Shown here piece after piece: positions 1 through 9,851 of a stretch of 9,851 bases of DNA. Positions within the stretch are counted from its first letter, which is position 1; every line of letters starts with the position of its first letter. The translations under genes and the position numbers were made by a program. A model generated the notes under the pieces. It had not been told where the DNA came from. It did no database searches and saw nothing but the letters and a program-made list of their open reading frames with translations. The DNA is from a bacterium (GTDB lineage: Bacteria; CAIWAD01). The DNA lies in NCBI GenBank assembly GCA_030429345.1, contig JAUIFJ010000059.1, positions 1 through 9,851 on the forward strand, given 5' to 3'.

Positions 1-25
1 AATTGGCTTCATGCTGCTGGGCCAT
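1..25 (-). CDS. IS256-family transposase, N-terminal fragment cut by window edge
   Basis: Only eight codons are visible, reading MAQQHEAN. The intact transposase at 8214 begins MAQIHEVN, so six of eight residues agree at the same place relative to the terminal repeat. A strong Shine-Dalgarno (AAGGAGG, 32-38 on the minus strand) sits six bases before the ATG. Whether the rest of the gene is intact cannot be judged. As a full gene it would encode a DDE transposase acting on the ends of its own element. Confidence 0.7.
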
Positions 26-97
26 GGTTTTCCTCCTTAGTGATTTGGTTATGCACCACTAAAGAAGGCCATGGCCCTTCCTTTTTCAAGGGCTTAG

Positions 98-121
98 CTG
101 CTTTTGCACAAATCTACGGAC
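98..121 (-). repeat. Terminal inverted repeat of the left IS256-family element
   Basis: On the plus strand the repeat starts CTGCTTTTGCACAAATCTAC and ends GGAC at 121. The reverse complement of 8121-8144 differs from it at one base of 24. Being an element end, it puts the boundary with flanking DNA at 121/122. Confidence 0.8.
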
Positions 122-484
122 TCAACCAGATTCTCCGGGGAGGGCGGTTGGCATGACACTTGTTCGGCAGTATTGGGATTGTCAAAAATGGATTGGAATA
201 ACAACACACTCTACAAGAAACTACCAGCTACACTTATCTACTCAAAAACCTTTGCTGACATTATCAAACAAGATCCTGAATTGGTTAGTAGTGTTTATGA
301 TTTCCGTAGTTTTATGTGAAGAGGAGATTGTTATTGATAATGTGACACCATGCTCGAATATGGATTACAAATCGTATTCGGTAAAGCGTAAACAGATTTG
401 CGCGATCTACAATAGTCTAAGGACGATTGGAGTTCTACCAGATATAGGTGCTGTTTGTTAAGTGGATTGACCTCGTTTTGCGGC
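122..484. other. AT-rich stretch with no supportable gene
   Basis: About 360 bases lie between the IS end and the repressor gene. One plus-strand reading frame (153-461, 102 codons) opens with an ATG about nine bases after a GGAGG-like sequence. Its predicted protein has no motif I recognise, has irregular composition, and overlaps another open frame (104-319), so I do not call it a gene. A 10-base match to the IS end core (CCGTAGTTTT, 304-313) may be a relic or chance. I see no RNA gene and no convincing terminator for the repressor gene, which ends at 485. Confidence 0.5.
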
Positions 485-907
485 TTAGTTGTTGCTTCCG
501 CGTGTTGTCAAGATTTCTGATGTTTCATCATTGTAATCATCTGCACCAATGCCAATTCGACATTTATCTTCACTTCTTAGGCTCAAACGCGCATGGAATC
601 GGTGGAGATCTTGTTCAAGAATTTGCTCGTCAATTCCTTTGACTATCTCGCAAAGAAGGTTGCTGTTTTTCGATGGTTCTGATAGGGAATAGTACACCCA
701 GCGTCCATCTTTATTTCCTACAACCAGCCCTGCATTTTGCAATTGGCCGATTCCTTTGGAAACTGTGTACTGCCGTTCCTGTAAACTGTCCACAAACTCA
801 CAAACACAGATTTCGGTTGAGTGCAGAGCTAGTAATCTGAAAATTCGCAGGCGAATTGGATCGGATAGTGCTTTCAGGGCACTGCAGAGCGTCTTCGAGT
901 CAGTCAT
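485..907 (-). CDS. ArsR/SmtB-family metal-responsive transcriptional repressor
   Basis: This predicted 140-residue protein is a winged helix-turn-helix repressor of the kind that blocks a metal-resistance promoter until metal binds. The N-terminal helix reads ALKALSDPIRLRIFRLL (10-26), a hallmark of the family. ICVCEF (33-38) supplies the Cys34-x-Cys36 pair seen in ArsR- and CadC-type thiolate sensors for As/Sb or Cd/Pb. The recognition helix lies around 46-62 and the wing is DGRWVYYSL (67-75). The C-terminal tail after about residue 105 is longer than usual and contains another Cys. I chose the ATG at 907 because AAGGAA lies six bases upstream. The in-frame ATG at 946 has no binding site and would put the gene start inside the operator. 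The gene is divergent from the efflux operon, so it probably represses both itself and the operon. Family assignment is firm; the sensed ion is inferred. Confidence 0.9.
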   Translation of the reverse strand: MTDSKTLCSALKALSDPIRLRIFRLLALHSTEICVCEFVDSLQERQYTVSKGIGQLQNAGLVVGNKDGRWVYYSLSEPSKNSNLLCEIVKGIDEQILEQDLHRFHARLSLRSEDKCRIGIGADDYNDETSEILTTRGSNN

Positions 908-930
908 TGGGCTTCCTTGTTGAATGACAG

Positions 931-959
931 TTGCAAATATGCGCATAAGTGCTTATATT
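931..959 (+). promoter_or_regulatory. Predicted sigma70-type promoter of the efflux operon
   Basis: A -35 candidate TTGCAA (931-936) is separated by exactly 17 bases from a -10 candidate TATATT (954-959), matching the consensus at four and five of six positions. Transcription would begin near 966 and read into the adaptor gene at 1031. The promoter for the divergent repressor is less clear. A weak candidate on the minus strand (TTATTA, 17-base spacer, CATATT) overlaps the same bases. Confidence 0.55.
945..956. promoter_or_regulatory. Probable ArsR-type operator
   Basis: ATAAG-TG-CTTAT is a perfect 5-2-5 inverted repeat lying in the -35/-10 spacer and overlapping the -10 box of the predicted operon promoter. 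The adjoining ATGCGCAT (939-946) is also a perfect palindrome. ArsR/SmtB repressors typically bind AT-rich interrupted palindromes in the divergent region of their own locus, so position and shape fit. Binding is inferred. Confidence 0.55.
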
Positions 960-1030: not shown

Positions 1031-2575
1031 ATGACAGCACAAGAAAACCGGAATCTCATAGGCGTGCTCCTCTTTATGCTCGTTTGGGCATTCTTGGGAA
1101 GTGGCTGTAGCAAAGAGAGGCCGGCCCAACAATCGTCTTCCACCGATTTGCAGCAAACTCAAGCGCATGCTCATTCAAACAATGATGAGACCTGTTTCAT
1201 ATGTGATCCCTCAAAACGGGAATCTGGCAGATTGTGGTGCGGTGAACACGCTCGATACGAAGACAGATGTTGGATTTGTCAACCACAGTTAGAAGAAGAA
1301 GGACGCCTTTATTGCGTGGAGCATTCCCTGTACGAAGATGAATGTCACCTGTGTCACCCTGAAGTGAAGAATAAAGACACGGGGAGTATTCAACCATCAG
1401 AAACCAACAAGCCTACCAGCTTATTCTGTAATGAACATCAAGTACCTGAGCGTGAGTGCGGAATCTGTCAACCGCAGATGACTGCTGAACTAGAGCCTGG
1501 TGAAGAATTGAAAGTCAGATTCGAATCCAAAGACTCATCTTCAAAGGCTGGGCTCCAAATGGGAGTCCCGGAGTATTCTGAGTCTGTTTCATCAGTAAAA
1601 GCTGTATGTGAAGTTCAATATGACGGGAATGCACACGGCAAGATAACTCCATTTGCTCCTGGAATTGTACGAACAGTACTGGCAGATGTAGGCAAATATG
1701 TTCGCGCTGGGGATGCATTGGTTGAATTGCATTCATCAGAAATTGCTGAAGCAAAAGCTGCATTCTCAAGTGCAGTAGTCGATGCAGAACTCAAAAGGAT
1801 TCAATACGAGCGTGAGAAAAGTCTTGCAGACAGAGGGGTAACATCTGAACAGGAACTAGAGCTAGTTGCTGCAGAGAAAAGAACGGCGACTTTGACACTG
1901 GAAAGAAACCGGCAGAGATTGAGTAATTACGGTCTAACGAATGAAGAGATCGATTCTATTGAGGAATCAGATAACGGATCTGCTTCTCTATTCATTCGTG
2001 CTCCATTTGATGGTACACTCATTGAAAGGAATGCAGTAATTGGTGAATCTGTTAAGCCCGGCGATGCGTTATTCACATTAGTTGATATGTCGAGCATGTG
2101 GCTCGATCTTTCAATTCCCGAGGATAGTGCTACACCCCTACAAGAAGGGTTGGACGTCGAAGCACTTTTTAGTGGCCATGTGAATTCAGGACTCATTGGG
2201 GAACTCACCTGGATTAGCAGTTCCATTGACCCCAGGAGCCGAATGGTGAGAGCTAGAGCTATTGTACCGAATAAGGATAAACAGCTTAGAAAAGGAATGT
2301 TTGGTGAGGCGTTAATTCATTTAAAGAAAAGTAGTCCCGTCATATCCGTACCAACCGCTGCAGTCCAGGAGTTCGAAAACCAACCTTATGTATTTGTACA
2401 ACATGAAGAGGACCTATTTGGTCTTAGGCGGGTAGCAGTTGGTCGCGCAATTGGTGGGTATCGCCCGATTAAGGCAGGTCTCAATCCTGGGGAACCAGTA
2501 GTAGTAGTTGGTGCATTTACTGCCATGTCTGAGTTTCTAAAATCTCGACTTGGCGCAGGTTGTGTGGATGACTGA
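1031..2575 (+). CDS. RND efflux periplasmic adaptor (CzcB/CusB-like lipoprotein) with N-terminal Cys/His repeats
   Basis: This predicted 514-residue membrane fusion protein links the inner-membrane pump to the outer-membrane channel. Residues 1-26 form a lipoprotein signal ending in SGC, with Cys26 the likely lipidated residue. The lipobox is slightly atypical, with Gly at -3. Residues 45-148 carry a repeated module C-x2-H-x6-C-x2-C. Complete copies lie at 70-83, 95-108 and 133-146. A first copy at 45-58 has Ala45 in place of the first Cys. Conserved pieces include CxEH and, in two copies, YED. The adaptor proper follows: a lipoyl/barrel-sandwich half (about 203-235, GIVRTVLADVGKYVRAGDAL), an alpha-helical hairpin (about 237-312), the second lipoyl half (320-355, RAPFDG at 323-328), a beta-barrel and a membrane-proximal domain. 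It ends in GAGCVDD. It is the first gene of the operon, 17 bases before the pump gene. The repeats probably bind metal in the periplasm, which is inference. The adaptor family is clear. Confidence 0.93.
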   Translation: MTAQENRNLIGVLLFMLVWAFLGSGCSKERPAQQSSSTDLQQTQAHAHSNNDETCFICDPSKRESGRLWCGEHARYEDRCWICQPQLEEEGRLYCVEHSLYEDECHLCHPEVKNKDTGSIQPSETNKPTSLFCNEHQVPERECGICQPQMTAELEPGEELKVRFESKDSSSKAGLQMGVPEYSESVSSVKAVCEVQYDGNAHGKITPFAPGIVRTVLADVGKYVRAGDALVELHSSEIAEAKAAFSSAVVDAELKRIQYEREKSLADRGVTSEQELELVAAEKRTATLTLERNRQRLSNYGLTNEEIDSIEESDNGSASLFIRAPFDGTLIERNAVIGESVKPGDALFTLVDMSSMWLDLSIPEDSATPLQEGLDVEALFSGHVNSGLIGELTWISSSIDPRSRMVRARAIVPNKDKQLRKGMFGEALIHLKKSSPVISVPTAAVQEFENQPYVFVQHEEDLFGLRRVAVGRAIGGYRPIKAGLNPGEPVVVVGAFTAMSEFLKSRLGAGCVDD

Positions 2576-2592: not shown

Positions 2593-5500
2593 ATGTTAGA
2601 ACATATTGTTCGCTTTTCACTTAACAATCGTCTACTTGTATTGATGCTGGCTGCCTTGCTGATAGGTGTCGGTGGCTTCACAATGTATCACACAACGGTT
2701 GATGCATTCCCAGATACCACACCAGTTCAGGTTCAAGTAAACACGGTTGCACCAGCATTGAATCCTGAAGAGGTTGAACAGCAACTCACACTACCTATTG
2801 AGTTATCCATTGGCGGTCTTCCTGGGCTGGCTGATGTAAGGTCAATATCTAAGTTCGGACTTTCTCAAGTCGTCGCTACATTTCATGATGGGACTAGTAT
2901 TTCCGATGCTCGGCAATATGTTTCAGAGCGATTGGCATCAGTTGAATTACCATCAGGAATTGACCGCCCAGTTTTAGGGCCGATTGCAACTGGCTTGGGC
3001 GAAGTATTCCACTATGTAGTACGATCAGATTCTCCCGACCGATCACTTGAAGAACTTCGTACTCTGCACGACTGGATCGTGAAGCCTGAACTCCGTAAAG
3101 TAGCCGGAGTTGCAGAGGTGAATTCCTGGGGAGGGCATGAGAAGCAGTACCATGTTGTTGTATCACCATCAGCATTACTGAAGTATGGGTTGACTCTTGA
3201 AGATGTGTTTACCGCACTAGAACACAACAATGAGAATGTGGGTGGTGGGATGCTCACGACAGGCGGACAAGCACGTTTGGTCCATGGAATTGGACGAATT
3301 TCCACAATTGAGCAGATAGGCGATGTTGTAGTCAGCTCGACTGATGGAGTACCAATCCGTGTACGCGATTTGTCTGAAGAAATTCGCATTGATCACGAAA
3401 TTCGACGAGGTGCAGTTACTGCGCAAGGCGATGGGGAAGTGGTACTGGGTCTGGCATTCATGTTGATGGGCGAGAACGGTAAGGCTGTGACTGAGCGATT
3501 AAAAGAGCGCCTAGCAGCAGTTCGAAATTCTTTGCCGGACGATGTCAATGTTGATATTGTCTATGATCGTACTGAGCTAACGCGTGAAGTTATTGGAACA
3601 GTCGAACACAATCTGTTTGCTGGTGCAGTCCTTGTCGTTTTAGTTTTGCTTGTGCTCTTCGGAAATCTACGCGCCGGTCTGCTAGTTGCTGTAGTCATCC
3701 CGCTTGCGATGTTGTTTGCCATCCTGGGAATGCACCAGTTCGCGATTGCTGCGAGCCTTCTTAGTCTTGGTGCGATAGACTTCGGAATCTTGGTAGACGG
3801 ATCAGTCGTGATGACTGAATCAAACATGCGACAAATGGCTGACCAGGCAAAATTGCTTGGAAGGCGCCTTTCAAACAAAGAGAGGTTAGAGATTGTACTA
3901 CAATCGGCACGCCAGGTGGCAAGGCCAATTGCATTTGGCATGGCAATCATTGCGGTTGTGTTTGTTCCTGTACTAACCTTGCAGGGTATGGAAGGGAAAA
4001 TGTTCAAACCTATGGCCTGGACATTTATCTTTGCCCTAGGTGGTGCACTAGTTCTTGCTCTGACACTCTCTCCTGTTCTGAGTTACTACTTCCTTCCACG
4101 AAATTTTAGTCACAAAGAAAGCCGAATAGCGCAGTACTTCTCAGCACTGTATACAAGAGCGTTGCATATGGCAATGCAGTTCAAATGGATTACTCTCAGT
4201 GTTGCTGCTATTGCCATACTGCTGGCAGGCGGGCTTGCCACACGGATGGGCGGCGAGTTTATACCCCGTCTTAGTGAAGGGGCAATTGTCCTTAACACAA
4301 TTCGCTTGGCTGGAGTATCAATAGAAGAATCGGTTCGCTATAACACGCAAATTGAGAATTTAGTTTTAGAAAGTTTTCCAGATGAAGTGAGAGATATATG
4401 GAGTAGAATTGGGACTGCTGAAGTGGCAACCGATCCCATGGGACTTGAGCTTACGGACATCTTCATAGCGTTGCATCCTCGTGATGAATGGACAAAAGCA
4501 GAATCGCAGTCGGAGCTGGTGGATGAAATCCAAAAACTGGTGGATGACCTGCCAGGGTTAAACATAGTTGCTACCCAGCCGATTGAGATGAGATTAAATG
4601 AAATGGCTTCCGGAATACGTTCGGATGTTGGAATAAAGATTTTTGGTGATGACTTCGATGAGCTGGTCCGAATCGGAGATGAAGTACAACGTATACTTCT
4701 TGACATCCCTGGTCAGTCGGATATCGCAGTGGACCAAGTAACAGGGCAACCAACACTTCGAATTCGTGTCGATCCAAACTCACTAGCCCGATATGGAATT
4801 TCTTCTTCTGATGTCCTTGACATTGTCGAGGTTGTAGGTGGTCGACAAGTTGGTGAGATCTTTGAGAGTCAGAGACGGTTTCCCTTGGTAGTTCGACTGT
4901 CCGATCGCCATAGACAGGACATTGATGTATTACAGAATACAATCGTTCCAACAAAGAATGGTCTTCAACTACCGTTAGGTGAACTGACCACCATTACTGA
5001 GGAGGAGGGAATCTCCACAATCAACAGGGAATGGGGTAGGCGACTGATTAGGGTACAGTGCAATGTCCGTGGTCGAGATGTTCAATCCTTTGTTCAGGAG
5101 GCGCAACGCAAGATATCCGATGATTTGATTCTGCCCGAAGGATATGTCATTGATTGGGGTGGACAATTTGAGAACCTAGCCCGAGCAAAGACACGCTTCC
5201 TGATTGTTGTACCAATGACGTTACTGTTAGTATTCCTGCTATTGTTTTTCAGTTTGAGGAATCTGCGCGAAGTCCTCCTCATTTATTCTGGAATTCCTTT
5301 TGCTGTGATTGGAGGTGTATTTGCTCTGTGGATCAGAGGTATCCCATTTAGTGTTAGTGCGGCAATTGGATTTATTGCACTGATAGGAATCGCAGTGTTG
5401 AATGGTCAAATCTTAATCTCTGCAATTCGACATTTTCTAACGCAAGGGAAACCATTACTGGAATCGGTTACTAGTGCTGCTGTCCAGCGACTTCGGCCAG

Positions 5501-5715
5501 TTCTTGCTACTGCAATCACGGATGCTGTTGGTTTCATCCCTATGGCCACTTCGGTGGGAATTGGCGCTGAAGTTCAACGGCCATTAGCTACGGTAGTCAT
5601 TGCCGGGGTATTGACTTCGACACTGTTGACACTTTTTGTGCTGCCGGTGTTATACATGCTGACCGTGCCAAGGAAAAATACCGTTAAGGAGGTGCCGCTT
5701 GAATCAATCCACTAG
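2593..5715 (+). CDS. czcA: Heavy-metal RND efflux pump, inner-membrane permease (CzcA/CusA family)
   Basis: This predicted 1040-residue proton-driven antiporter exports metal ions and is close to the usual family length of about 1,050. It shows the duplicated RND plan. TM1 (about 13-31) is followed by a large periplasmic loop, a membrane block (about 340-500), a second single helix (about 528-546), a second periplasmic loop and a C-terminal membrane block (about 870-1030). The TM4 motif is DFGILVDGSVVMTE (396-409). Asp396, Asp402 and Glu409 match the proton-relay residues Asp402, Asp408 and Glu415 that I recall for Cupriavidus CzcA. This motif marks the divalent-cation subgroups rather than the Cu/Ag CusA type. 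GIRSDVGIKIFGDD and AVLNG are further heavy-metal RND signatures. The start has AGGAAA (2580-2585) seven bases upstream. The 3' end overlaps the channel gene. The exact ion is not settled by sequence, and the symbol denotes the family. Confidence 0.95.
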   Translation: MLEHIVRFSLNNRLLVLMLAALLIGVGGFTMYHTTVDAFPDTTPVQVQVNTVAPALNPEEVEQQLTLPIELSIGGLPGLADVRSISKFGLSQVVATFHDGTSISDARQYVSERLASVELPSGIDRPVLGPIATGLGEVFHYVVRSDSPDRSLEELRTLHDWIVKPELRKVAGVAEVNSWGGHEKQYHVVVSPSALLKYGLTLEDVFTALEHNNENVGGGMLTTGGQARLVHGIGRISTIEQIGDVVVSSTDGVPIRVRDLSEEIRIDHEIRRGAVTAQGDGEVVLGLAFMLMGENGKAVTERLKERLAAVRNSLPDDVNVDIVYDRTELTREVIGTVEHNLFAGAVLVVLVLLVLFGNLRAGLLVAVVIPLAMLFAILGMHQFAIAASLLSLGAIDFGILVDGSVVMTESNMRQMADQAKLLGRRLSNKERLEIVLQSARQVARPIAFGMAIIAVVFVPVLTLQGMEGKMFKPMAWTFIFALGGALVLALTLSPVLSYYFLPRNFSHKESRIAQYFSALYTRALHMAMQFKWITLSVAAIAILLAGGLATRMGGEFIPRLSEGAIVLNTIRLAGVSIEESVRYNTQIENLVLESFPDEVRDIWSRIGTAEVATDPMGLELTDIFIALHPRDEWTKAESQSELVDEIQKLVDDLPGLNIVATQPIEMRLNEMASGIRSDVGIKIFGDDFDELVRIGDEVQRILLDIPGQSDIAVDQVTGQPTLRIRVDPNSLARYGISSSDVLDIVEVVGGRQVGEIFESQRRFPLVVRLSDRHRQDIDVLQNTIVPTKNGLQLPLGELTTITEEEGISTINREWGRRLIRVQCNVRGRDVQSFVQEAQRKISDDLILPEGYVIDWGGQFENLARAKTRFLIVVPMTLLLVFLLLFFSLRNLREVLLIYSGIPFAVIGGVFALWIRGIPFSVSAAIGFIALIGIAVLNGQILISAIRHFLTQGKPLLESVTSAAVQRLRPVLATAITDAVGFIPMATSVGIGAEVQRPLATVVIAGVLTSTLLTLFVLPVLYMLTVPRKNTVKEVPLESIH
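5686..5692 (+). promoter_or_regulatory. Strong Shine-Dalgarno selecting a TTG start
   Basis: AAGGAGG ends six bases before the TTG at 5699. The first in-frame ATG (5717) has no purine-rich site at a useful distance. The site lies inside the end of the pump gene, so translation of the two genes is probably coupled. Confidence 0.75.
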
Positions 5716-7090
5716 AATGAGTTTTGGATCAGCATGCCTAAAATGTAGTCGGCTTCTGCTTGTTATAGTTTTGTCTACTCTTGCGGGTTGTGCTAGCCTT
5801 AACCCAGAAAAGGACCTGAAAAAGGTATACGAGTACAACAAAAGTATCCTACCGGTTACGGACGACTCAGTATTTGATCCGGATGAAATTGATGTTGTTA
5901 GCCAGAGAGTGGCAGAGTTGTTGGAAGGTGGTCTAACAGCGGACGAAGCTGAACAGATTGCAGTACTCAACAACAAAGAGATTGAGGCGGCGTATTTTGA
6001 GATTGGGATTTCAAGAGCGGAGCTTGTTCAGTCAACAACGATTGGGAATCCAATAGTTGAGGCAACAATGCTCAACTCAAGAGACAATGATAATACTACA
6101 TATGAGGCGAGTATATCATTCTCGCTGAGCGAGATTTGGAGTTTGCCCTTAAGAAAGAGGATTCAACACTCACGACATGAAGGTAAACTACTTGATGTCT
6201 CTGATAGAATCGCAGTGTTGATCTCCGATACAAGAGAAGCATTTAACTCTGCAATAGCTTCAATCAAAGCAAGGGAGATTGAGGAAATCAATCTGGCTTC
6301 TACCAGTCAATTGTTAGAATTGGTTTTAGTCAAGCAAGAATTGGGTGCAACTTCTACGATCGAAGTAAATAGTGCAAAAGCAGAAAATATAGAGCAAGAA
6401 ATTGTATTACAATCAACGCTCGTTGAAGTCAATCGTACACACAGACATTTGGAGACAATTCTTGGTCTAAAATTAGAGCAGGATATCTTATCTATCGAAC
6501 AAGATGTACATATGGATCTCGATTCATTGATAAATGTTGACCGGCTCATCATTGCAGCCGAAGCTAATCGACCCATTCTGAGGCAATTGCAATTCCGAGT
6601 CCAGGCAGCAGAAGCAGATATCAAACTTCAGAAACAACTTACAATCTCTGAGTTTCGAGGTAGTCTAGCAGTTGAAAGCAAAGATGGCTCTCTGGAGTAC
6701 GGACCGGGAGTAGAACTGGAAGTTCCGATCTTCAATCGGAACCGGGCTTTGATTTCAAAGGCAAAGTATCGGTTGCAGCAGGTCAGAGCTTTGTATGAAG
6801 CCCAGAGACTGCAGGTCCGACAAGAAGTGTACGATGCGTATCATGGTGCATTAACAGCACTTAGTGTGATGAAAGCATACAATGATCAAATCGTTCCACT
6901 ACGTGAGCGCAACCTGGAACTCACCAGAAGCTCCTACTTAGCCGGCAAAGAGACTCTGGTATCGGTTCTATTAGCACAGCAAGAACTTCTTGACTCGAGA
7001 CGTGCCGCTGTTCAGAGTGAATCCCAAGCATTTACAGCAGTTACTGTTTTGGAAAGTGTCTGCAGAACGGAACTGCTATCGGACAAGTAG
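5699..7090 (+). CDS. TolC-family outer-membrane channel lipoprotein (CzcC/CusC-like)
   Basis: This predicted 463-residue outer-membrane factor forms the exit duct of the tripartite pump. The N-terminus is a lipoprotein signal: a basic start, a hydrophobic run LLLVIVLSTLAG and Cys31 in a good lipobox (LAGC). The body has the two outer-membrane efflux protein repeats. The first begins near TADEAEQIAVLNNKEIEAAY with ISRAELVQSTTIGNP after it. The second begins near LIIAAEANRPILRQLQFRVQ and ends with a long helix carrying LTRSSYLAGKETLVSVLLAQ. Long Glu- and Gln-rich helical stretches fit the periplasmic coiled-coil tunnel. Translation starts at TTG 5699 by virtue of the Shine-Dalgarno at 5686, overlapping the pump gene by 17 bases. 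This is the last gene of the operon. The order adaptor-pump-channel differs from the C-B-A order of classical czc. A start at ATG 5717 is the alternative and would still keep the signal. Confidence 0.92.
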   Translation: MNQSTRMSFGSACLKCSRLLLVIVLSTLAGCASLNPEKDLKKVYEYNKSILPVTDDSVFDPDEIDVVSQRVAELLEGGLTADEAEQIAVLNNKEIEAAYFEIGISRAELVQSTTIGNPIVEATMLNSRDNDNTTYEASISFSLSEIWSLPLRKRIQHSRHEGKLLDVSDRIAVLISDTREAFNSAIASIKAREIEEINLASTSQLLELVLVKQELGATSTIEVNSAKAENIEQEIVLQSTLVEVNRTHRHLETILGLKLEQDILSIEQDVHMDLDSLINVDRLIIAAEANRPILRQLQFRVQAAEADIKLQKQLTISEFRGSLAVESKDGSLEYGPGVELEVPIFNRNRALISKAKYRLQQVRALYEAQRLQVRQEVYDAYHGALTALSVMKAYNDQIVPLRERNLELTRSSYLAGKETLVSVLLAQQELLDSRRAAVQSESQAFTAVTVLESVCRTELLSDK

Positions 7091-7197: not shown

Positions 7198-8049
7198 CTA
7201 ACGTAATCTTGATTCAATTGCTGCCTGCAGTTCGTCGTCGACCACATGCGTGTAGATCGCGGTGGTCTGCGGATTCTCATGATCCAGGGCTTTCTGGACC
7301 AGGCGCAGGTTCCCGTTCTTGGCGAGCAGGCTGGTGGCGAAGGTATGGCGCAGGGTGTGCGGATGCACATCTTTGTCGATGCCGGCCAGCTGGCACCAGC
7401 GGCTCACGATCCGGCGGACCTGGCGGTCTGATAGGCGCAACTTCCTGGACGACAGGAAGACAGGCCCTTGCATTTCTATTTCCGAATAACTCGCGAACAG
7501 GCTACCGAGCTGCGTACGAACATCTGCTGACAGGAACTTATTCCTGTTCTTCCCGCCTTTAGCCAGCAGTTTGATCCGCTTACTCTCCAGATCCACATCC
7601 GTAACATCCAAGCCGACGGCTTCACTCACGCGGACGCCTGTGTTCAGAATCAGGCAGATCAGTGCGCGGTCGCGCTGCTGGTGGCGCTGGTCGGTGCGGT
7701 CCTTCAGCGTCTTGCGTAGGAGCTTCTCTTCGCTGTTGTTCAGGAATTCAGGGACTTGCCGTGTGACTCGCGGCCCCTTCATTTGAGCGAGGAAATCTCC
7801 GCACGGATGCTGGTTCCAACGGAAGAACTGGCGGAGTATCACGAGCTGCCGGTTTGCGGTTGAATTTGCGTTTCCATGTCGGGCGATATACCGTGTCAAG
7901 TGGTGCTGGGTAACGCCGCCCAGGAGGATGCCTTCTTTATCAAGGAAATCCGCTAGACGCATGAGTTCGCTTCTGTAGGTCCGGCTGGAGTTTTCTGATA
8001 AATGCCTGGCTTGCAGGCTTTCGATGAATTGGATGATTGTGGTGTGCAT
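7198..8049 (-). CDS. Tyrosine recombinase / integrase (XerC/D-like), intact
   Basis: This predicted 283-residue site-specific recombinase cuts and rejoins DNA through a covalent phosphotyrosine. Residues 1-90 form the N-terminal core-binding domain (SSRTYRSELMRLADFL at 21-36). The catalytic domain has the full set: Arg140 (TGVRVSEAVGL), Lys164 (AKGGK), His231 and Arg234 (HTLRHTFA), His257 (LDHENP) and the nucleophile Tyr266 (AIYTHV). The frame stays open upstream to 8169, but that part runs into the IS end. I therefore take the ATG at 8049, which has AAGGA ten bases upstream and gives a normal N-terminus. It lacks the extra helix typical of integron integrases. It is convergent with the efflux operon and in the same orientation as a related truncated recombinase at 9422-9851. 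It could mobilise the island or could be a chromosomal-dimer or phage-type enzyme. Its site is unknown. Confidence 0.92.
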   Translation of the reverse strand: MHTTIIQFIESLQARHLSENSSRTYRSELMRLADFLDKEGILLGGVTQHHLTRYIARHGNANSTANRQLVILRQFFRWNQHPCGDFLAQMKGPRVTRQVPEFLNNSEEKLLRKTLKDRTDQRHQQRDRALICLILNTGVRVSEAVGLDVTDVDLESKRIKLLAKGGKNRNKFLSADVRTQLGSLFASYSEIEMQGPVFLSSRKLRLSDRQVRRIVSRWCQLAGIDKDVHPHTLRHTFATSLLAKNGNLRLVQKALDHENPQTTAIYTHVVDDELQAAIESRLR

Positions 8050-8075
8050 GGATTCGGATTCCTTTTTGCATGCCT

Positions 8076-8112
8076 GCCCGGCGTGTTTGTCCTCCAGCAC
8101 GCCGGGCTTTTT
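8076..8112 (+). terminator. Perfect GC-rich hairpin with T-run (Rho-independent terminator form)
   Basis: GCCCGGCGTG (8076-8085) and CACGCCGGGC (8098-8107) form a perfect 10-base stem around a 12-base loop, followed directly by TTTTT on the plus strand. In form it is a strong intrinsic terminator for rightward transcription. No plus-strand gene ends just before it, because the neighbour is the start of the minus-strand recombinase. It may therefore be a relic of a lost gene, a shield between the recombinase and the IS, or a structured leader or recombination site for the recombinase. Confidence 0.6.
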
Positions 8113-8120
8113 GCGGTTGT

Positions 8121-8144
8121 GTCCGTAGTTTTGTGCAAAAGCAG
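8121..8144 (+). repeat. Upstream terminal inverted repeat of the right IS256-family element
   Basis: The repeat begins GTCCGTAGTTTTGTGCAAAA and ends GCAG. It pairs with 9398-9421, and the best conserved block is GTGCAAAA. The end at 98-121 is almost identical in reverse orientation. Confidence 0.85.
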
Positions 8145-8213
8145 GATGGCTTGAAATAGAGTGGGCCATCGCTTTCCTTGTCTAGTACCACCTAAGACAA
8201 AGGAGAGCACACG

Positions 8214-9401
8214 ATGGCCCAGATCCATGAAGTCAATCTCAGCGCGCAGTTGCAAGAGGCATTGATCGATGACCCAGATTTCCTGCGCAACCTGCTTCAA
8301 GAGTCACTACAGCAGTTTCTGGAAAGGGAGTTCAGCCGTTTCATCGGTGCTGAACCTCACCAGCGGGTTGACACGAGGCGTGGCTACCGCTGCGGCTACT
8401 ACGAGCGGGACCTGATCACGACCGTTGGGAGCATCACCCTTCGGGTTCCCAGGGATCGAAAGGGTGAGTTCTCTTCGGAGATCTTCGATCGGTATCAACG
8501 CAGCGAGAAGGCCTTTGTCCTTTCCTTGATGCAGATGTACGTCCAGGGGGTGTCGACTCGGAAGGTGAAGCGGATTACCGAGGAGCTGTGTGGAGTTTCC
8601 GTTTCCAAGTCCCTGGTCTCCACGCTGGTTGAGAACTTGGACCAACAGCTGTTGGATTGGAAAACCAAGCCACTGGAGTCCCATTATTCGGTCTTGTACG
8701 TGGATGGCATGTACATGAGCGTTCGCCTGGAAAGCCGTGTCCGGAAGATGGTCGGTCTGGTGATCTTAGGTGTGAAGCCGGATGGCAAGCGAGAAGTGTT
8801 GACGGCCGCTGTCGTACCGGAGGAAAACGAGACCGAGTACGGCGAGCTGTTTGATGAGCTGAAAATGCGTGGTCTGCGTAGTGCCGATCTGGTCGTGAGC
8901 GATGCCCACCCGGGGTTGAAAAGCGCCATCGCCCGAGCATTTCCTCGCTCCGCCTGGCAACGGTGTCTGGTACACTTTCTTCGGAATCTGGGAGGAAAGT
9001 GTCCTGCCCGGCATCGCGAGGAAATGCTCGGGCGAGTCAAGGGTGCGCTGCAACTACCGAATCGAAGTGCTGCCGAAAAGGAGCTGCGTGAGATTGCCCA
9101 CTGGGCGCAAGGCATTCGCGAATCACTGGGTAACTGGCTTGAGGATGCGATTCCCGAGATCCTGGCATTCACTGAATTCCCGCAGGGACTCTGGCGCAGA
9201 ATCAAATCGAACAACCTGCTTGAGCGGTTCAATGGTGAACTCCGGCGACGCTTCCGCGTGATACGCATCTTTCCGAATGCGAAGAGCTTTCTGCGGTTGC
9301 TTACGGCACTAGCCGCAGAACAAGACGAAGAATGGCAGGCAGCGAACCGCTACCTGAAGCCCTCATTACTGAATCAGATTCAGGCGAGGAAGGCGAGCTG
9401 A
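8214..9401 (+). CDS. IS256-family (Mutator-like) DDE transposase
   Basis: This predicted 395-residue transposase moves the surrounding element by cutting at its terminal repeats. Length is typical of the family. The catalytic triad is visible as Asp164 (YVDGMY), Asp230 (VVSDAHPGL) and Glu337 (NNLLERFNGELRRR). The family's C-x2-H pair is Cys251 and His254 (CLVHFLRN) between the second Asp and the Glu. The N-terminal DNA-binding part includes RRGYRCGYYERDL (55-67) and the conserved LRVPRDRKGEF (76-86). AAAGGAGA lies upstream of the ATG at 8214. The frame has no interruption, so the enzyme may be active. The stop codon (9399-9401) lies inside the right terminal repeat. Hand-counted GC near the gene centre is about 65%, far above the efflux genes, which suggests separate origin. 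Confidence 0.95.
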   Translation: MAQIHEVNLSAQLQEALIDDPDFLRNLLQESLQQFLEREFSRFIGAEPHQRVDTRRGYRCGYYERDLITTVGSITLRVPRDRKGEFSSEIFDRYQRSEKAFVLSLMQMYVQGVSTRKVKRITEELCGVSVSKSLVSTLVENLDQQLLDWKTKPLESHYSVLYVDGMYMSVRLESRVRKMVGLVILGVKPDGKREVLTAAVVPEENETEYGELFDELKMRGLRSADLVVSDAHPGLKSAIARAFPRSAWQRCLVHFLRNLGGKCPARHREEMLGRVKGALQLPNRSAAEKELREIAHWAQGIRESLGNWLEDAIPEILAFTEFPQGLWRRIKSNNLLERFNGELRRRFRVIRIFPNAKSFLRLLTALAAEQDEEWQAANRYLKPSLLNQIQARKAS

Positions 9402-9421
9402 TTTTGCACACGATTCAGGAC
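9398..9421 (-). repeat. Downstream terminal inverted repeat of the right IS256-family element
   Basis: On the plus strand the repeat starts CTGATTTTGCACACGATTCA and ends GGAC at 9421. It matches the reverse complement of 8121-8144 at 18 of 24 positions, with the outermost four bases and the TTTTGCAC block conserved. The transposase stop codon falls in its first bases. Confidence 0.82.
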
Positions 9422-9851
9422 TTGACTTGGCAAAGGTGTGCCGCAGGGTATGGGGGTGGACATGCTTCTCAATCCCTGCCAGCCGCGTCCAGTGGACGAC
9501 GATCCGCCTGACCTGGCGATCGGATAGCCGGGTGCCGTCCCGCCCCTCGAACAGCGGTTCATCCGCCTCGCGATTGTGAATCATGGGCCCCAGGTGCTCC
9601 CGGGTTTCTGCCGGCAGGAACTTGGAGCGCAGCTTTCCCCCCTTGGTCTGCAGGCGCACCCGCTTGTCCACCAGGTCGACATCTCCCACCGAAAGCCCGA
9701 CGGCCTCCGCGACCCGCAATCCCGTGTCGAGCATCAGGCACAGGAGCGCCCGGTCCCGGTCGCGGAAGGGCTGATCCGTCCGCCCCTTCAGCACTTGTCG
9801 CAGCTGCCGCTCCTCCCCCTCGGTCAGGAACTGGGGGATCTTGCGCACGGT
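9422..9851 (-). pseudogene. Tyrosine recombinase, truncated by IS256-family element and window edge
   Basis: This is the central part of a tyrosine recombinase clearly related to the intact one at 7198-8049. Both share PxFL near the left, TDQ...RDRAL, TG-RV-EAVGL, LSDRQVRRIV and HPHTLRHTFA. The first catalytic Arg (TGLRVAEAVGL), the Lys region (TKGGK) and the His-x2-Arg (HTLRH) are present. The coding sequence breaks off shortly after HTFAKS at the IS boundary (9421/9422), and the frame then runs into IS sequence to a stop at 9366. The second His and the nucleophilic Tyr are therefore lost, and the product cannot be active. The 5' end continues past the window edge. The GTG at 9848 is only an internal codon, judging by alignment to the intact paralogue. 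Hand-counted GC in one row is about 67%, against about 55% in one row of the paralogue, so the two are not recent duplicates. Confidence 0.85.

Follow-up and report, generated by a model that had tools for sequence, protein, structure and literature searches.

Cys/His units on the adaptor of a CzcCBA-type efflux operon suggest a periplasmic metal relay coupled to a C-terminal cysteine

Why should the adaptor of a bacterial efflux pump carry a row of regularly spaced cysteines and histidines at its N terminus? The question is raised by a 9,851-base stretch of DNA (the window), which is an entire contig (C77) of a 4.2-Mb genome and encodes the following.

485-946, minus strand: ArsR/SmtB-family repressor, divergent from the operon (NCBIfam HTH_metalloreg, 1.8e-20)
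1031-2575, plus strand: RND periplasmic adaptor, CzcB/CusB-like, 514 residues (HlyD_D23, 2.4e-41; TIGR01730, 3.4e-49; ZneB 3lnn, 4.2e-18)
1106-1108, plus strand: lipobox Cys26 (LGSGC) of the adaptor, from the sequence
2593-5715, plus strand: HME-RND pump of the CzcA/ZneA type, 1040 residues (TIGR00914, E 0; ZneA 4k0e, 1.3e-199)
5723-7090, plus strand: TolC-like outer membrane factor, a lipoprotein (OEP, 7.3e-33)
7198-8169, minus strand: tyrosine recombinase

The adaptor, which scores above the TIGR01730 cutoff and starts at an ATG (a TTG at 1004 is a possible alternative), shares one operon with the pump and the TolC-like channel (OEP). Judged by its pump and operon, the predicted product is an HME-RND tripartite efflux system of the CzcCBA kind.

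The operon is bounded on both sides by mobile elements.

8115-9421, plus strand: IS256-family element with its transposase at 8214-9401 (Transposase_mut, 9.6e-116; inverted repeat pairs I1 and I4)
1-127, minus strand: end of a second, related insertion sequence at the contig edge, about 73% identical to the element at 8115-9421 and inverted

Across the operon the GC content lies at 0.42-0.48, and the contig as a whole is at 0.48; four other stretches of the genome have values of 0.62-0.66. This low GC and the two related, inverted insertion sequences mark the metal operon, by its sequence features, as an imported island. Although the same GC difference might suggest that the contig is a contaminant, we consider this unlikely, because another 11 contigs from this genome carry ends that are 98-100% identical to the insertion sequence end at 1-127. 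At the right edge, a fragment of a second tyrosine recombinase runs off the contig; a 103-base stretch of it (9428-9530) is 75% identical to 7335-7437, which belongs to the recombinase at 7198-8169.

Behind the lipidated Cys26, the sequence-only reading had described three complete C-x2-H-x6-C-x2-C units, one more that lacks only its first Cys, and linkers of 11, 11 and 24 residues between them. Translation confirmed the three exact units and the linker lengths.

1163-1204, plus strand: unit 1, residues 45-58, variant H46-x-H48-x6-C55-x2-C58 (sequence)
1238-1279, plus strand: unit 2, residues 70-83, CGEHARYEDRCWIC (sequence)
1313-1354, plus strand: unit 3, residues 95-108, CVEHSLYEDECHLC (sequence)
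1427-1468, plus strand: unit 4, residues 133-146, CNEHQVPERECGIC (sequence)

Residues 27-165 contain 11 Cys and 7 His; when this segment was shuffled 20,000 times at the same composition, the average was 0.002 units and no shuffle contained more than one. The description of unit 1 needed refinement: the first Cys is indeed absent, but the variant has H-x-H in its place, and relatives show two forms. The arrays of L018 (CTEHGIANNECFIC), L035 (CARHNAPEDLCFIC) and L068 (CAPHHAPKQWCFIC) start with a complete unit, and those of L027, L030, L051, L061 and L066 with H-x-H-x6-C-x2-C, matching the window. Unit 1 therefore appears to be a genuine unit in which one ligand has changed, and this apparently incomplete unit is likely to be a working variant.

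Which metal might such an array handle? The pump scored 1138 bits against TIGR00914 (cutoff 701), and its best solved match was ZneA (4k0e, 1.3e-199), ahead of CusA (7.9e-173). The Met triad of CusA (Met573, Met623 and Met672) aligns with Asn, Leu and Glu in the window pump. A signature motif lies in TM4.

3778-3801, plus strand: pump TM4 motif DFGILVDG (DFGILVDGS), from alignment and motif survey

The third part of the motif is TESN in the window pump instead of VEN. Among the matches listed, all pumps next to unit-bearing adaptors whose motif could be read have DFG, and none found beside such an adaptor has a CusA-type motif; AIG was seen only once, in L005, which is related but lacks the unit. 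DFG-x3-DGA-x3-VEN is the motif of the HME1 and HME2 groups (Zn, Co, Cd and Ni), whereas HME4 comprises the Cu(I)/Ag(I) pumps (PMC3637150). The window repressor has an EICVC motif, read from the sequence, in its recognition-helix region; ELCVCD occurs in the ArsR of L011, L039 and L049 but not in that of L043. In ArsR and CadC, CVC is a thiol metal site for thiophilic ions. A ZneA-like pump with DFG and without the Met triad, together with the CVC of the repressor, thus points to a divalent thiophilic metal, such as Zn, Cd or Pb, as the most likely exported ion.

These findings did not support one part of the earlier reading, that the array stands in place of the methionines of CusB: the pump is CzcA-like. 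A CusB-like copper or silver system was rejected on the pump residues and motif. The CusB model scored 50 bits on the window adaptor against a cutoff of 390, and TIGR00999, the CzcB equivalog, scored 165.5 bits against 319.3, each below its threshold. Because the pump is of the CzcA type, the counterpart of the adaptor is CzcB rather than CusB, and by this sequence comparison the array is a cysteine-type counterpart of the His-rich extension of CzcB, not of anything in CusB.

We then looked at the unit beyond the window. Public species genomes were scanned with a DNA pattern for C-x-E-H-x6-C-x2-C-x-P, which returned at least 119 stretches. Real unit proteins were found in at least 110 loci: at least 61 in Planctomycetota, 17 in Myxococcota, 8 in Verrucomicrobiota, 5 in Zixiibacteriota and 19 in other or unplaced genomes, each number a minimum and a count of matches listed, not a frequency. 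A profile of the two-unit protein described below was searched over an even draw of genomes (E <= 1e-5). It matched at least 43 of 246 Planctomycetota, 21 of 140 Myxococcota and 7 of 145 Verrucomicrobiota, all lower bounds because certain draws had only part of their candidates scored and units of the window type give low scores; among Pseudomonadota it matched none of 249. A CEH...CRYEVG variant pattern was likewise absent from 398 Pseudomonadota genomes. That similar CxEH...CxxC motifs occur in planctomycete adaptors, as the earlier reading stated, is supported, as both pattern scan and profile search found the unit to be common there.

Closer to the window, a genome search found no second copy of the array in the same genome, and the array was absent from all four other genomes of the phylum that were examined. 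G003, of the same phylum, encodes an adaptor that has just one unit, a variant (CEHGVKTHQCEEC), together with a stretch rich in His and a C-terminal GAGC. The unit is also carried by planctomycete plasmids, on an adaptor in L006 and, in L007, in a two-unit protein with an adaptor beside it; a plasmid search with the unit alone matched two planctomycete plasmids only. In viral contigs the DNA pattern gave 13 scattered single matches.

The fetching pattern fixes the ligands of one unit per locus, the remaining units having been found with a looser pattern, so the following conservation figures, all from the matches listed, lean upward. Spacing was exact in 335 of 356 units, and 19 had one residue fewer between C and H. 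The unit His was replaced in only 3 of 325 cases, once by Lys and twice by Cys, the sole swap seen twice at this ligand. Non-ligand residues were conserved as well: W before the first Cys, E after it, P-E in between and P after Cys4. Linkers between units ranged from 8 to 60 residues, with peaks at 10-11 and 14; fixed inner spacing combined with variable linkers indicates that the unit is self-contained. An alternative division into C-x2-C-x11-C-x2-H was rejected, because C-x2-H-x6-C-x2-C is exact in relatives, the stretch between units varies and one-unit proteins exist. The longest array among the matches listed, nine units, is on an adaptor of Candidatus Uabimicrobium amorphum (L039).

The unit occurs in two arrangements. 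In the fused form, seen in 91 ORFs among the matches listed, one to nine copies are attached to the N terminus of an adaptor core, and for 83 of the 91 a pump lies within 4 kb on the same strand. The separate form, again among the matches listed, consists of 48 small ORFs with at least two units, usually two; an RND part lies within 2.5 kb of 39 of them, and most of the remainder lie where the retrieved sequence ends. A hydrophobic export signal was found in 48 of 50 separate proteins listed (42 with a lipobox and 6 with a hydrophobic stretch). Both forms occur together in 26 of the listed loci. Seven loci have a separate protein but a neighboring adaptor without visible units; at least three of those adaptor ORFs (L021, L040 and L111), however, look incomplete at the N terminus.

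Two myxococcal exported proteins combine one or two units with a following thioredoxin domain, recognized by Pfam in L028 (1.6e-10) and by sequence in L119, where the ORF is cut at the locus edge.

L028:4634-5320, minus strand: exported unit protein with thioredoxin domain
L119:1-441, minus strand: exported unit protein with thioredoxin domain

Several unit operons also encode, directly ahead of the TolC gene, an exported Cys-rich protein of 140-153 residues (LCLCADGGVQIEKSC...CC...CNNCTDLPL). Five scanned copies had no Pfam family, and the protein was not seen in the window.

L091:5795-6214, minus strand: Cys-rich protein
L051:2745-3179, plus strand: Cys-rich protein
L066:714-1139, plus strand: Cys-rich protein
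L070:4965-5423, minus strand: Cys-rich protein
L086:2345-2791, plus strand: Cys-rich protein
L112:6960-7418, minus strand: Cys-rich protein
L114:3306-3731, plus strand: Cys-rich protein

The window array belongs to a recognizable subclass. Its order is a first unit, then GRLWCxEHxRYEDRCWxCxP, RLYCxEHxLYEDECxLCxP and finally FCNEHxVPExECGICQP, and among the matches listed such arrays occur in Planctomycetota, Verrucomicrobiota, Kiritimatiellota and one deltaproteobacterial bin. In a FastTree analysis of adaptor cores from which the array had been removed, the window adaptor nested with six window-type rows at 99% local support. L040 and L100, labeled Bacteroidota/Bacteroidales or Alphaproteobacteria, fell among planctomycete rows in this tree, which may reflect misbinning or transfer.

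The other end of the adaptor is also distinctive.

2552-2563, plus strand: C-terminal GAGC (Cys511) of the adaptor, conserved in unit-bearing adaptors

Among the matches listed, 81 unit-bearing adaptors had a readable end; 77 of these have G-x-[GA]-C near the C terminus and 79 have a Cys within the last 20 residues. None of 38 proteobacterial relatives, Cupriavidus CzcB included, has the unit or such a C-terminal Cys; 22 of the 38 end in HxH, and most have His-rich N termini. The contrast is not only between phyla. Planctomycete adaptors with the unit neither in cis nor in trans have His tails (GEGHAH on the second adaptor of L109, GHGH in L115), and in L109 the GEGHAH adaptor stands beside a unit-bearing one ending in GAGC. 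In L031, L040, L087, L096 and L111, the adaptor has no visible unit, a separate protein is present and the tail is GAGC. These planctomycete His-tail and in-trans cases are a small sample. Moreover, a single ancestral event could explain the coupling; as Cys tail and unit may share one origin, it does not amount to repeated independent evidence. With that proviso, what is new here, as far as the compared sequences go, is that a C-terminal G-x-G-C almost always accompanies the unit. Adaptor chains begin and finish at the inner membrane (PMC4446572), so both adaptor ends should lie near the pump.

Does the unit have a fold of its own, and is it known? Structure prediction gave a confident, compact model for the two-unit protein and a middling one for the window array. 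AlphaFold2 with 34 sequences modeled the two-unit protein of L054 at pLDDT 87 and pTM 0.70, with 91-95 over the units: short strands surround each C-x2-H, a helix turn lies at each C-x2-C and a longer helix follows each unit. The window array, with 14 sequences, reached pLDDT 68.5 and pTM 0.32, with about 80 over the first three units, units 2-3 among them, and a floppy linker at 78-88. Neither model matched a PDB structure at E <= 0.001 (best Foldseek E values 1.3 and 5.1). The unit fell into no family of Pfam or NCBIfam, nor did it match any PDB sequence; in particular, no CusF family match was found in these three collections. Zinc-finger profiles gave only sub-threshold matches or partial ones of 11 residues, and since so small a fold matches weakly, novelty is unproven. 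One of these, the TRM13 zinc-finger profile, exceeded its threshold over the whole protein (21.8 versus 20.9) through an 11-residue stretch that fails alone; we take it to be chance. A description of the motif was not found in the open-access literature.

Known systems offer instructive comparisons. Cupriavidus CzcB and ZneB resemble the window in adaptor core, adaptor-pump order and DFG-type pump, and also in having a flexible ligand-rich N terminus and a C-terminal ligand tail; CzcB-type adaptors, however, use His-rich runs and HxH tails without cysteine, where the window has Cys3His units at intervals and a GAGC tail. The proposed layout, in which an element in the periplasm, on its own or fused to the adaptor, binds metal and feeds the pump, parallels the copper and silver systems: a metallochaperone domain is fused in SilB and stands alone as CusF, and the CusB N terminus receives metal from CusF and then hands it on (PMC4446572). 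Those elements are an OB-like barrel or Met-based Cu(I)/Ag(I) sites, whereas the window has short Cys3His beads in a row and a divalent-type pump. CzcI, a small exported protein encoded beside czcCBA, has been proposed as a chaperone to CzcB (PMC10393844); the two-unit protein, likewise small, exported and pump-adjacent, belongs to no Pfam or NCBIfam family.

Metal binding by the units is, on sequence and model grounds, the best explanation of their conservation, their association with pumps and the two-unit fold. The earlier reading, of a Cys/His domain with several sites on an RND adaptor that is exported, is supported, and we propose, with a probability of about 0.6, that the beads capture a divalent thiophilic metal in the periplasm and deliver it to the pump. 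The window adaptor would have four beads, units 2-4 each forming a Cys3His site and unit 1 a His2Cys2 site, tethered next to the RND pump by the lipid anchor and variable linkers. They would take up Zn, Cd, possibly Pb or Hg, and hand the metal to the CzcA-type pump, perhaps via Cys511 of the C-terminal GAGC; the pump would then expel it through the TolC-like channel. Relatives also have the bead as an exported protein of its own, encoded next to the pump, much as CusF relates to SilB. What the sequences show directly is the pattern and how well it is kept, the existence of units both fused to adaptors and as separate proteins, their association with pumps of the CzcA type and their co-occurrence with the Cys tail; from this we infer metal binding, the identity of the metal, its transfer and the order of transfer.

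The beads could instead be structural, each holding a permanent zinc that keeps a tiny fold together and mediating protein-protein contacts (with pump, channel or separate protein) rather than carrying metal. Cys3His is a common structural zinc ligand set, the conserved non-ligand residues suggest a real surface and the two-unit fold is predicted with confidence. Yet one to nine copies among related adaptors would be odd for one fixed interface, the unit lies almost only beside metal pumps among the matches listed, and one window unit has His-His for Cys-His; we consider this explanation unlikely. A metallothionein-like buffer, which would sequester periplasmic metal and protect the envelope without delivering it directly to the pump, is in our judgment quite unlikely: most units are covalently part of the adaptor, the genes for separate unit proteins lie next to that of the pump, and the accompanying C-terminal Cys suggests a path to it, even though buffering would suit the many sites per protein (up to nine among the matches listed), the separate small lipoproteins and the 26 listed loci with both forms.

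Could the units belong to a family already described, or serve redox chemistry? HMBD (PF19335) is C-x2-H-x10-C-x2-C and is found on CusB-like adaptors and P-type ATPases; its ligand order and, on some adaptors and ATPases, its N-terminal place are alike. A divergent HMBD is nevertheless very unlikely, and we rejected membership: PF19335 matched neither the window protein nor any of 35 two-unit proteins and 14 arrays, although the same library found it in L047 at 4e-19, and the unit has a spacing of 6 rather than 10, different surrounding residues and no CGM. Exported CxxC motifs are frequently redox-active, and the units adjoin a thioredoxin domain in the two myxococcal proteins (L028 and L119). 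Oxidized CxxC pairs, serving stability or a thiol-redox task in the periplasm, are still the least probable of these alternatives, given the link to metal pumps and three Cys with a near-invariant His per unit; in one-unit proteins the number of conserved Cys is odd, so that one would always lack a disulfide partner. Capture of metal and delivery to the pump remains the reading that we prefer.

The metal route into HME-RND pumps is understood mostly for Cu(I)/Ag(I), via the Met sites of CusF and CusB; to our knowledge, the role of the adaptor ends in divalent pumps is largely open. The unit provides a natural series of one to nine copies, fused and separate, that goes together with a C-terminal Cys of the adaptor and has a His-based counterpart in the same phylum; this makes the hand-off question testable by end swaps and unit counts. 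Because Pfam and NCBIfam hold no model of the unit, many of these proteins are now named only 'adaptor subunit' or 'hypothetical'. Tentatively, and with less confidence than we attach to capture and delivery, we suggest that they may form an undescribed family of periplasmic metal-relay domains, acting in cis or in trans, for the HME-RND pumps of Planctomycetota, Myxococcota, Verrucomicrobiota and relatives, in which thiols at both adaptor ends would replace the histidines of the CzcB type and set a preference for thiophilic divalent metals.
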